A DNA stretch of 64,000 bases from Arthrobacter gandavensis (GTDB lineage: Bacteria > Actinomycetota > Actinomycetes > Actinomycetales > Micrococcaceae), in the NCBI RefSeq assembly GCF_015355785.1, contig NZ_JADKYW010000006.1, positions 640,936-704,935 of the forward strand. Reading direction: 5' to 3'. Position numbers and translations under genes: made by a program. Positions 13,954 through 63,233 of this stretch are shown here, piece after piece (the stretch's first letter is position 1; each line of letters starts with the position of its first letter). Under the pieces are notes generated by a model. It did not search any database and was not told the DNA's origin. It worked only from the letters and a program-made list of their open reading frames with translations.

Positions 13954-13966
13954 TTCAGGCCGGGAG

Positions 13967-14002
13967 GAGCACCGGAACGGCGGCAACGAAAATCCGGTGC
14001 TC
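13967..14002. terminator. Possible terminator hairpin
   Basis: The 10-bp arms GAGCACCGGA (13967-13976) and TCCGGTGCTC (13993-14002) surround a 16-nt loop. They lie between the convergent small gene (stop 13953) and the carboxypeptidase gene (stop 14163). No clear T-run follows. The remaining ~160 bp up to 14163 show nothing else. Confidence 0.4.
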
Positions 14003-14162
14003 GAAGGGCTCGCTTGGATGATTAAAGCCGCCTAACCCGGCACTCTTCCCCTGGTGCCGGTATCCCCTGCCCAGCTTCCCAACCATCGTTGAGGATCTTG
14101 TCCCGTGAGGTCACAGAAGGAGGCAGGCGTAACGGAGAATGGGAGCGCGCGCCGCTAAACGC

Positions 14163-26103: not shown

Positions 26104-26173
26104 TGTACTGAATTGCCCGTACTTAATTGCTTGTACTGAGTTACCCGTACTGAGTTACCCGTACTGAGTTACG
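26104..26173. repeat. Five tandem 14-bp repeats between nrdH and nrdI
   Basis: Five head-to-tail 14-bp units start at 26104, 26118, 26132, 26146 and 26160. Units 3 and 4 are identical (GTACTGAGTTACCC), unit 5 differs in the last two bases, and units 1 and 2 are more diverged (GTACTGAATTGCCC, GTACTTAATTGCTT). They fill nearly half of the 172-bp nrdH-nrdI spacer. Function unknown. Confidence 0.9.
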
Positions 26174-60440: not shown

Positions 60441-61184
60441 CTAGCGGCGGATGACCTTGTGCTGCGCGGCCTGTGCCACCGGGCGGATGACTACCTGGTC
60501 AAGGTTGACGTGGTGCGGCGCGTTCAGGGCGTAGGCCATGACGTCCGCGACATCCCCGGCCGTGAGCGGCTTTGCGACGCCGGCGTAGATCTTCTCGGCC
60601 GCAGCGGGGTCGCCGAGCCGGTTCAGGGAGAACTCTTCGGTCTTGACCATGCCGGGCAGAATCTCGATGACGCGCACGTTGTGCTGGGCCTCTTCCAGCC
60701 GCAGTGCCTGGGTCAGTGCTTCTTCTCCGGCCTTGGCAGCACAGTAGCCCGCTCCGCCTTCGTAGGCTGCGAGAGCGGCGGTGGAGGTCAGCATGAGGAT
60801 GGATCCTTCGCCGTTTTTCCGCAGCGCGGGCAGGAAGGCCTGCGTGACGTTCAGCGCGCCAAGGACGTTGACGTTGTACATCCGGACCCAGTCCTCCGGA
60901 TTGCCGGTGGCCACCGGGTCCATTCCGAATGCGCCGCCTGCGTTGTTCACGATGGCGTCCACTCCCCCGTCGGCCAGCACGGTCTGGGCCATGGCATCCA
61001 CGGACTCACGGTCGGTGACGTCGCAGGCGATGACCCGGGCGCCGGTTTCCTCTGCGAGGTCTTTCAGCCGGTCTTCCCGCCGGGCGACGGCGACTACGTC
61101 CCAGCCTGTCTGCCGCAGGGCACGGACCGCTGCCGCACCGATTCCCGAGCTTGCTCCGGTTACTACCACGCGCTTGTTTGTCAT
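60441..61184 (-). CDS. Short-chain dehydrogenase/reductase (classical SDR)
   Basis: 247 residues with the cofactor motif VVVTGASSGIGAAAVRAL, the NNAG strand (VDAIVNNAGGAFG), the catalytic Ser in MLTSTAALAAYEG and the YxxxK in GYCAAKAGEEAL. It reduces or oxidises an alcohol/ketone using NAD(P)(H); YdfG/serine-dehydrogenase-like members are close in plan, but the substrate is not known. ATG 61184 is preferred to in-frame upstream sequence that runs into repeats. Confidence 0.9.
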   Translation of the reverse strand: MTNKRVVVTGASSGIGAAAVRALRQTGWDVVAVARREDRLKDLAEETGARVIACDVTDRESVDAMAQTVLADGGVDAIVNNAGGAFGMDPVATGNPEDWVRMYNVNVLGALNVTQAFLPALRKNGEGSILMLTSTAALAAYEGGAGYCAAKAGEEALTQALRLEEAQHNVRVIEILPGMVKTEEFSLNRLGDPAAAEKIYAGVAKPLTAGDVADVMAYALNAPHHVNLDQVVIRPVAQAAQHKVIRR

Positions 61185-61266
61185 GACGGCTACCCTAGCG
61201 AACCGCCGTCCCGTTGACGTGGCTGCGCGTCGTGCTGTGTCGCGGCCGAGGTGTTCTGCGTGGCAC

Positions 61267-61414
61267 GGTTTCCCAGCCACCGTTGCTGGTGTGGCCGCCG
61301 GGGTCCGCGCCCGCGCGGTTTCCCAGCCACCGTTGCTGGTGTGGCCGCCGGGGTCCGCGCCCGCGCGGTTTCCCAGCCTCCGTTGCTGGTGTGGCCCTCG
61401 GGGGTCCCATCCGT
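61267..61414. repeat. 50-bp tandem repeats (2 full units plus a related third)
   Basis: Units start at 61267, 61317 and 61367, each beginning GGTTTCCCAGCC. The first two are identical over 50 bp; the third diverges near its end and reads on to CCCATCCGT at 61414. Each unit contains the short hairpin CCAGC-N7-GCTGG. The repeats fill most of the 297-bp gap between the SDR and DUF559 genes; no reading frame in them looks like a gene. Confidence 0.9.
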
Positions 61415-61481
61415 AGCCATGCTTAACGACGGTTGGGATTCAGTGCGCGCTGTGGGTCCGCGCGACTCAGGAACTGAGGAT

Positions 61482-62303
61482 TCAGGCTCGGGCCAAGGCG
61501 GCACGGACCAGACGGATGAACTCTTCCGGGCTGCGCAGGATCATCTCCGCTGTGATGCGCAGGGTTTTGTATCCACGGGCGGTGGCCTGGTTCCATCGGG
61601 CCCGGTCATTCCGGTACTCAGTACGGCCGCTGTGGAACTCGTACCCGTCCAGCTCGATGATGAGCCGGCCTCCGACCAGGAAATCCACACGTCCTACGCC
61701 GTCGACCAACACCTCTCTCTGGACCGGGAACCCCGCTGCGCACAGATGGTAGCGGGCACAAACTTCCAGCGGAGAGGCCGTCTTCCGGCTTATTCCCTCC
61801 AGAAGTGCACGAACCCGCCAGTCCTGAGGCCGGTCGAAGGCATGGATGAGGGCGGCCTTCGAGACAGCGTTACGGGCGACGGCTGATTCGGCTATCACCA
61901 GGGCCTGCAGCGGAGGAAGACACCGAAAGGCGTCCAGGACGACGGCCGTCGGTAAACACACCAGTCTCGCCGCCGACCTTCTACCCCGATGCAGCCGGAT
62001 TTCGGGAACGTCGACCATCTTGTCTGCCCGCAGGTGGAGCACCTCCGGCGGTTCCAGAACCCACCAGCCTTGAAGTTGCGCAGCGGAGACACAGGTCAGG
62101 GAGGTACCCAGCGAGGCGGCGGCAACCAGCTCAGCCGGTGCGCCTTCTAGCCTGTAGTACCCGCGGCCAGCGCGCTGCAGGACGCCACCGCGATGTACAG
62201 CCGCAACCTTCGAACGGCCAAACCCGTTGGCTGCGAGCGCACCGACGCTGACTACCCCGTAGTGCGCCCGGCACACTGCTTCTATCGGATCTACCGTTTC
62301 CAT
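61482..62303 (-). CDS. DUF559 (Vsr-like endonuclease) protein with AbiEi-type N-terminus
   Basis: 273 residues. The N-terminal ~90 resemble the winged-helix/AbiEi-type part of type IV toxin-antitoxin antitoxins (VSVGALAANGFGRSKVAAVH, YYRLEG). The C-terminal domain is DUF559, a PD-(D/E)xK-like fold related to very-short-patch-repair endonucleases: GVGRVDFLVGGRLIIELDGY, followed by EFH and EYRNDRARWN. The Asp and E-x-D residues are intact. No toxin partner is adjacent. The role is unknown; defence or DNA repair are guesses. It is flanked by the 48-bp related repeats at 61367 and 62444. Confidence 0.75.
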   Translation of the reverse strand: METVDPIEAVCRAHYGVVSVGALAANGFGRSKVAAVHRGGVLQRAGRGYYRLEGAPAELVAAASLGTSLTCVSAAQLQGWWVLEPPEVLHLRADKMVDVPEIRLHRGRRSAARLVCLPTAVVLDAFRCLPPLQALVIAESAVARNAVSKAALIHAFDRPQDWRVRALLEGISRKTASPLEVCARYHLCAAGFPVQREVLVDGVGRVDFLVGGRLIIELDGYEFHSGRTEYRNDRARWNQATARGYKTLRITAEMILRSPEEFIRLVRAALARA

Positions 62304-62443
62304 CGCCTGCACCGTCCCAGCCTGACCGACTGAACGGTCCCGTGCGCCGTCGGGCGGCCTTGTGTGGATTGCCAGGGCATTCCGGCCCGAAGGAGACCGT
62401 CTGTGCAGGGACGGAGGACGCCGATACGGGGCTCAAACTTCAC

Positions 62444-62491
62444 GGTTTCCCACCGCTGGTTACGTGTGCCGGCAGGCGGGACCCCATCCGT
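62444..62491. repeat. Diverged 48-bp copy of the repeat unit
   Basis: It begins GGTTTCCCA and ends CCCATCCGT, as does the third unit at 61367-61414, with the same 48-bp length and orientation and a variable interior. The two copies bracket the DUF559 gene as direct repeats. Confidence 0.55.
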
Positions 62492-62577
62492 CCCGGCCGC
62501 AACGAGGACGGGGAACCTGCGCAAGCCTGCTTGGAAGCCAGCATGGTCACCCCGTGCCCTCGGCCGCAGGACGCCCT

Positions 62578-62685
62578 GACCGGACACCGGCACCGGACCG
62601 GACCGGACCGGACCGGCACCGGACCGGACCGGCACCGGACCGGCACCGGCACCGGCACTGGACCGGACACCGGCGCCGGACCACG
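62578..62685. repeat. Low-complexity tandem array of GACCG / GCACCG units
   Basis: About 20 units of 5 and 6 bp alternate irregularly over ~105 bp (e.g. CCGGACCGGACCGG, CCGGCACCGGCACCGG). The array could fold into long imperfect hairpins because CCGG is self-complementary. Confidence 0.85.
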
Positions 62686-62789: not shown

Positions 62790-63233
62790 ATGCCGCGCGC
62801 CGACAAAATCCCAGCCTGGGCCCGCCGCACGGGCATTGAAGTTTCCGGCTGGACCCTGATCGCTCTCGGCGCTGCCGCTCTGGTCTTGCCTGGTCCCGGC
62901 CTGCTGATGCTCGTCGCCGGGCTTGCGATCCTTTCCCTGCGTTACGCCTGGGCTGACAGGTGGCTGCACCCGGTGAAGGTCCAGGCCTACCGCGCTGCTG
63001 AACAGGGCGTGCGGTCCTGGGTCCGGATCGTGATCGCGCTCGCCGGTGCCCTGACCCTGATCGCCGCCGGCATCACCTGGGGCCTCTGGCGCAGTGTTCC
63101 CGCCTGGTGGCCGCTGGAAGAGCGCTGGTGGCTCCCGGGCGGCTGGACCACCGGCACCGCCCTCATCCTCTCCGGCTGCATCGCCATTGCCCTAGTGGGC
63201 TACAGCTATGTGAGGTTCAGGCCCAGCAAATAG
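62790..63233 (+). CDS. PGPGW-family (TIGR02611-like) membrane protein
   Basis: A 147-residue protein with four hydrophobic segments. The first pair has the family motif LVLPGPGLLMLVAGLAILSL; the third is IVIALAGALTLIAAGITWGL and the last ALILSGCIAIALVGYSYV. Short, membrane-embedded; function unknown. ATG 62790. Its 3' end overlaps the convergent DUF488 gene by 28 bp. Confidence 0.82.
   Translation: MPRADKIPAWARRTGIEVSGWTLIALGAAALVLPGPGLLMLVAGLAILSLRYAWADRWLHPVKVQAYRAAEQGVRSWVRIVIALAGALTLIAAGITWGLWRSVPAWWPLEERWWLPGGWTTGTALILSGCIAIALVGYSYVRFRPSK

Follow-up and report, generated by a model that had tools for sequence, protein, structure and literature searches.

The locus lies in a window of 64,000 nucleotides of Arthrobacter gandavensis DNA, which is the whole stretch that was analysed, and it consists of a nuclease gene placed between two imperfect palindromes, E1 and E2 (Table 1). 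The gene specifies a protein of 276 residues, whose closest named homologue, from Arthrobacter koreensis DSM 16760, is 85% identical. An earlier sequence-only reading had described a DUF559 gene with an AbiEi-like N-terminus, and both parts of this description hold: the protein matches Pfam DUF559 with 25 bits (cut-off 20.6), and PADLOC assigns residues 2-67 to AbiEi. (The match to the Pfam family MTES_1575 is 30.2 bits, which is below the cut-off of that family.) Among 20 aligned orthologues, all 20 match MTES_1575 and DUF559 and 16 match AbiEi_4 (E up to 1), and the nuclease-core residues show no variation, with a conserved E, D, E-x-D, and H (alignment A3). The best PDB matches of an AlphaFold2 model of the protein (pLDDT 89) are the AbiEi antitoxin 6y8q and the I-Bth0305I catalytic domain 3r3p (TM-score 0.80 over the target for 3r3p_B); Vsr comes next and is weaker. 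The gene is free-standing between other genes, with no intron or intein around it, and no AbiEii toxin partner is present among the three neighbours tested, which specify SDR, PGPGW, and DUF488 proteins.

Table 1. Features of the nuclease locus and the third palindrome copy (positions in the window)
Feature	Position	Strand	Remarks
Short-chain dehydrogenase (SDR), conserved neighbour	60441..61184	-	context
Left half of E1, two additional tandem units of 50 bp	61263..61362	+	tandem-repeat analysis
Palindromic element E1 (full copy)	61362..61447	+	3' side of nuclease gene; R2 65.4 bits; alignment A1; fold
Nuclease gene	61482..62312	-	AbiEi-like N-terminal part and Vsr/I-Bth0305I-like (DUF559/MTES_1575) domain; start GTG 62312 or ATG 62303
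Palindromic element E2 (full copy)	62439..62523	+	5' side of nuclease gene; R2 64.1 bits; direct orientation with E1
PGPGW membrane protein, neighbour	62790..63233	+	context
Third element copy	14068..14153	+	between two genes, far from nuclease gene; R2 54.4 bits

The sequence-only reading had reported two 48-bp segments, at 61367-61414 and 62444-62491, which agree in length and orientation and have the common ends GGTTTCCCA and CCCATCCGT, and it had placed the left one in a 50-bp tandem array. These observations are accurate, the left segment being the last of three tandem units (61263-61412). What was misjudged is the extent of the repeat: because the segments are just the left parts of imperfect palindromes of ~85 bp, the 48-bp unit is not a natural one. 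For the end GGTTTCCCA the window has 5 occurrences where 0.51 are expected, a count that none of 100 shuffles reaches; CCCATCCGT occurs twice (0.79 expected), which by itself is not significant because 21 of 100 shuffles equal this count. Alignment and folding give the palindrome consensus GCACGGTTTCCCAGCC..CGTT ... AACGACGG.TGGGAA..CC, in which the arms are GCACGGTTTCCCAGCC..CGTT and AACG..GG.TGGGAA.CC.GTGC, and the elements have a common shape, an outer palindrome together with an inner GTGGG..CCCAC dyad. A covariance model built from 61 element copies (R2) finds three full elements in the window, E1, E2, and a third copy that was unexpected, and a weak match of 19.7 bits (61262-61328) overlaps the first 50-bp tandem unit. 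When the 48-bp ends were searched in 29 congeneric genomes, the exact pair was found twice, both times at this locus (reversed control, 0). The ~85-bp palindrome belongs to a genus-wide family.

No known RNA family reaches the gathering score in Rfam at the nuclease locus, and around the third copy even a more lenient threshold reveals none. The imperfect-palindrome shape suggested integron attC sites, a possibility that was set aside, as the ends, judged by eye, do not appear to match the attC consensus. The window also holds repeats of other kinds. A different conserved repeat of ~80 bp, with ends ATTAAAGCCGCCTAACCCGG, lies at 13959-14041; it has many copies genus-wide, is present also in palindrome-free genomes, is often close to palindromes, and matches no Rfam family at the gathering score. 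Directly past E2 there is a low-complexity, ACCGG-based tandem array (62578-62682), and about 5 copies of the 14-bp unit GTACTGAGTTACCC form a tandem repeat at 26105-26172.

The palindromes and the nuclease gene within Arthrobacter

The locus was compared in 29 Arthrobacter genomes, 21 with the nuclease gene and 8 without it. The position of the gene is constant, with the SDR gene to one side and DUF488/valS to the other, and in all 21 gene-bearing genomes an element adjoins it on at least one side, usually the 5' side; the corresponding interval of the gene-less genomes contains an element in one case of eight (Fisher p=5e-6, with phylogeny ignored). In the gene-less genome G001, the SDR-valS interval keeps one full element and partial ones. 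Within 13-18 kb of the locus (29 genomes, 422 kb) there are 108 model hits, and by visual comparison all of them fall in the SDR-valS interval. Over 800 kb of G020 and G021, 10 of 13 element hits adjoin the nuclease gene, and a 400-kb comparison of insertions between these two genomes shows almost no elements apart from the locus.

Genome-wide, the gene-bearing genomes have 13-82 element hits each, and the gene-less ones have 0, 0, 0, 1, 1, 4, 28, and 54, so that elements are near-absent in six of the eight. (In these R1 counts both strands of one palindrome are counted, and up to 150 candidates were scored per genome.) By count, the gene and the abundance of the element are strongly associated (p=6e-5); this is not significant once phylogeny is considered, because the genus tree offers just 3 independent gene/no-gene contrasts. 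G018 (54 hits) and G001 (28 hits) are rich in elements without having the gene, and elements therefore outlast it. In G020, the gene has suffered a deletion and a frameshift, and about 46 residues holding the nuclease core are gone; with 13 hits, this genome has the fewest elements among the gene-bearing ones. The best of the dispersed copies is closer to the gene-flanking element of another clade than to that of its own in five genomes (G019, G026, G004, G005, and G011).

On a tree of ileS, SDR, and valS, the presence of the nuclease gene changes 4 times. In G004 and G011 (L058, L059) the orientation of the gene with respect to its conserved neighbours is reversed. The flanking DNA of G004 is 91-95% identical to that of its sister G014, and the two nucleases are 61% identical; the G004 nuclease groups instead with that of G011 (83% identity). 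Since the region in which homology breaks down includes the gene together with both elements, the cassette has been exchanged as a block between species. The sequence-only reading had considered that the interval might prove to be ordinary chromosomal DNA conserved in all relatives. It is indeed syntenic in 21 of the 29 genomes, but the absence of the gene from 8, the core deletion in G020, the inverted block in G004 and G011, and presence/absence polymorphism rule out an ordinary immobile interval.

This polymorphism, which had been proposed as a check, affects both the gene cassette and single elements at orthologous sites, and is a likeness to MITEs and other non-autonomous transposons. Where the third element of the window lies, G000 carries it beside another repeat, and in its sister G010, which has the same left neighbour, the two genes abut; an element is also present in G004 and missing from G001, G005, G011, and G012, which share the left neighbour. 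At the G018 site L299, flanks that are about 160 bp apart are joined within 2 bp in G006 and within 33 bp in G007. (The search for empty counterparts of G018 sites used 7 of 12 sites; both flanks were found only at L299, L305 has both outer flanks together with other differences, and the remaining sites have one flank or none.) Comparison of the orthologous sites resolved neither the exact junctions of the insertions nor any duplication of target sites.

Half and full elements also form long mosaic arrays with common sequence at the G000 contig ends L129, L130, L131, and L132. Arrays lie in long repeat tracts, and 5S rRNA is found near the C5-end array of G000 and near an array that begins a contig of G011. 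A general link of the arrays with rrn operons was set aside as weakly supported: of 15 own-genome loci one has 5S rRNA nearby, and of 20 others also one.

Homologous loci outside the genus

When 245 genomes of the family were searched with a profile of the 20 orthologues, 106 of them, from 16 of 32 genera, contained relatives. For 55 of the 56 best-scoring places outside Arthrobacter in this search, the 500 bp on each side of the match were compared, with the 95th percentile of mismatched left-right pairs as the threshold. The left and right flanks match at 35 of the 55 loci (permuted mean 3.6, maximum 11 in 5000 permutations) and do not match at 20; windows 700 bp further out pass at 5 of the 55. 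The sequence-only reading had raised the question of whether other DUF559 genes are accompanied by the same repeats; the homologous loci with matching flanks are bracketed, each by a repeat sequence of its own. At the 22 of the 55 loci inspected, many of the common flank pieces are imperfect palindromes, such as CCCAGGCCCGTCCAAT..ATTGGACGGGCCTGG in G138, CCCAGTTGTCCCATTGAGTG..CACTCAGTGGGATAACTGGG in G152, and AACTTATGC..GCATAAGTT in G036. Of the 34 cases without a tie, 28 have flank copies in direct orientation. Matching flanks also occur at more distant loci, in Cellulomonas and Actinomyces (clearly at two of five; L149 and L150 lay outside the test). Phage and plasmid records contain few, distant homologues; one of four plasmid-labelled records, from Actinomyces oris, shows matching flanks, and those from Tsukamurella, although labelled 'plasmid', seem to be chromosomal.

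The repeats are specific to their genomes. When 14 elements, picked for strong left-right similarity, were compared as one joined query with 11 genomes, 147 of 149 hits fell in the genome of origin, and the other 2 in G054, which is congeneric with two of the source genomes. Ten of the 14 are present at further places besides the nuclease locus, as counted by eye among the best candidates scored (up to 38 per genome); for the remaining 4 no such copy was seen in the 11 genomes. The dispersed places among the scored candidates number about 23 for one G138 element, 17 in G152, and 11 in G081. G138 has five nuclease homologues, at least three of them with different element pairs.

All 19 dispersed G138 copies that were inspected are full-length and have constant ends (L383, element 2, stands outside the alignment). 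In an alignment of 17 of the 19 with two gene-flanking copies (A5; L379 and L381 left out for length), 90.7% of stem positions form standard pairs, compared with 88.6% in shuffled alignments, of which 2 in 500 reach the observed level, and there are 13 double-sided changes that keep the stems, compared with 7.9 in shuffles (7 of 500 as high). This pairing supports selection on symmetry, which would act either on a hairpin or on a dimeric binding site.

Alternative explanations

The main rival to a mobile unit is that an AbiEi-like autoregulator binds the palindromes at its own gene, the dispersed copies being the sites of a regulon. AbiEi antitoxins of type IV toxin-antitoxin systems bind inverted repeats and autoregulate, as outlined in PMC7319586; the N-terminal part of the nuclease has the AbiEi fold and may share this recognition, and the usual location of the element within the genus, 5' of the gene, would suit an operator. 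The protein differs from an AbiEi antitoxin in its added nuclease domain and in the lack of AbiEii among the tested neighbours, and the distribution of the palindromes speaks against regulation: copies lie 3' of the gene as well, matching pairs bracket the gene at the 35 loci outside the genus, and the 31 element-containing gaps with gene calls on both sides are 15 convergent, 14 same-direction, and 2 divergent, compared with 8 divergent among 27 other gaps (Fisher p=0.03, with crude gene calls). Moreover, the elements are long (77-110 bp), have constant ends, and come and go between sister species. An operator is thus an unlikely explanation.

A free-standing homing nuclease would cut, at its own locus, alleles that lack the cassette, and repair would spread the cassette; the palindromes would then protect occupied sites or be by-products. 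That the nuclease domain resembles the fold of the Vsr-like homing endonuclease I-Bth0305I most closely is in keeping with this, as are the swapping of cassettes between species at one locus and the existence of gene-less alleles. The nuclease differs from such enzymes in lying outside an intron or intein, in its AbiEi-like fusion, and in its palindromic bracket, and homing by itself does not explain the many full-length palindromes at unrelated, gene-less sites, which leaves this explanation rather improbable.

Ordinary host palindromes of REP type, spread by something else and merely near nuclease genes, would agree with the retention of repeats in G018 and G001 and with arrays in long repeat tracts, two of them near 5S rRNA. 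Given the cognate pairing this explanation is already disfavoured, and we regard it as quite improbable: in many genera the repeats to the left and right of homologous genes match each other and differ from those of other genomes, and the 29 genomes of the genus have no Y1 transposase. A solitary defence gene with palindromes that mark self DNA is very unlikely; the sequence-only reading had also proposed a defence cassette, and apart from the PADLOC match to AbiEi and the nuclease fold nothing found shows defence, the chromosomal neighbourhood being conserved and the tested neighbours including no AbiEii partner.

A nuclease and its palindrome compared with REP/RAYT systems

REP-like palindromes are common bacterial repeats, and to our knowledge their sole dedicated partner is the RAYT transposase. 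The sequence-only reading had likened the repeat family and its endonuclease to such a system, and this likeness is well supported and holds beyond the genus: as with REPs or REPINs and RAYT (TnpA-REP), the palindromes are dispersed between genes, are sometimes clustered, bracket the partner gene, and lie mostly in convergent or same-direction gaps. The partner, however, is not a RAYT. A RAYT-type Y1 transposase (PF01797) was found in none of the 29 Arthrobacter genomes (positive controls were detected in 5 of 14), and in place of a Y1/HUH enzyme there is an AbiEi-Vsr-like fusion. The elements, ~75-110 bp, are also longer than tagged REPs, which as outlined by Di Nocera (2013, PMC3733652) measure 20-40 bp and have a terminal GTAG or CGTC tag that the consensus lacks. 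Lacking the defining transposase, and with repeats that are longer and carry no tag, the system is not a member of the REP/RAYT group. The same census describes CGTC-type repeats for which it gives no known enzyme; these resemble the present elements as palindromic repeats without a RAYT partner, and differ in sequence, in size, and in that a candidate dedicated enzyme exists here. The sequence-only reading had counted repeats found at random without DUF559 against a link to the gene; palindromes do occur away from DUF559, and so do REPs away from RAYTs.

Taken together, the loci are best read as a class of actinobacterial unit in which one nuclease gene lies between two imperfect palindromes of ~75-110 bp, mostly direct. 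By analogy, a palindromic repeat is here probably paired, in the manner of REP/RAYT, with a cognate nuclease whose fold is unrelated. More tentatively, it could be a new class of mobile palindrome in actinobacteria, driven by a cognate AbiEi-Vsr-like nuclease with no transposase, in which each nuclease lineage would own a single type of palindrome (with several types per genome in some species) and spread it between gene ends, and in which the palindrome-gene-palindrome unit is exchanged between species. The anatomy, the specificity of repeats to genomes, their association with the gene, the polymorphism, and the exchange of cassettes are observations; binding, cleavage, and copying belong to the proposed model. 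That the nuclease may move the palindromes is suggested by REP/RAYT systems, where the anatomy is the same, and its steps can be pictured on the same model. The AbiEi-like part would recognise the cognate palindrome; the nuclease would nick or cut at the palindrome or at the recipient site; and repair or copying would leave a new palindrome there. The gene with its bracket would be the driver, and single palindromes its non-autonomous offspring. Several observations weigh against this reading: the gene-less but repeat-rich genomes G018 and G001, the 20 of 55 loci whose flanks do not match, the 4 of 14 elements for which no dispersed copy was seen, the five genomes in which the best dispersed copy is nearer to an element of another clade, the small number of independent contrasts on the genus tree, and the lack of a resolved insertion junction.

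This reading of a nuclease-driven palindrome predicts one palindrome for one protein. If it is true, a nuclease that is not a transposase and has its own palindrome would provide a second, testable route for the spread of REP-like repeats, and a role would be found for a large family of actinobacterial proteins annotated as DUF559 or AbiEi. Titles and the opening parts of abstracts yielded no link of DUF559 to repeats or transposons, and no such pairing; most subscription papers and all bioRxiv preprints lie outside this scope, so that absence in print is not established.

BOX elements and BIMEs are modular, with tandem half-units and full palindromes. The stretch 61263-61447 is likewise made up of modular half-units and a full palindrome, a likeness of layout, and it differs from them in its dedicated nuclease gene.
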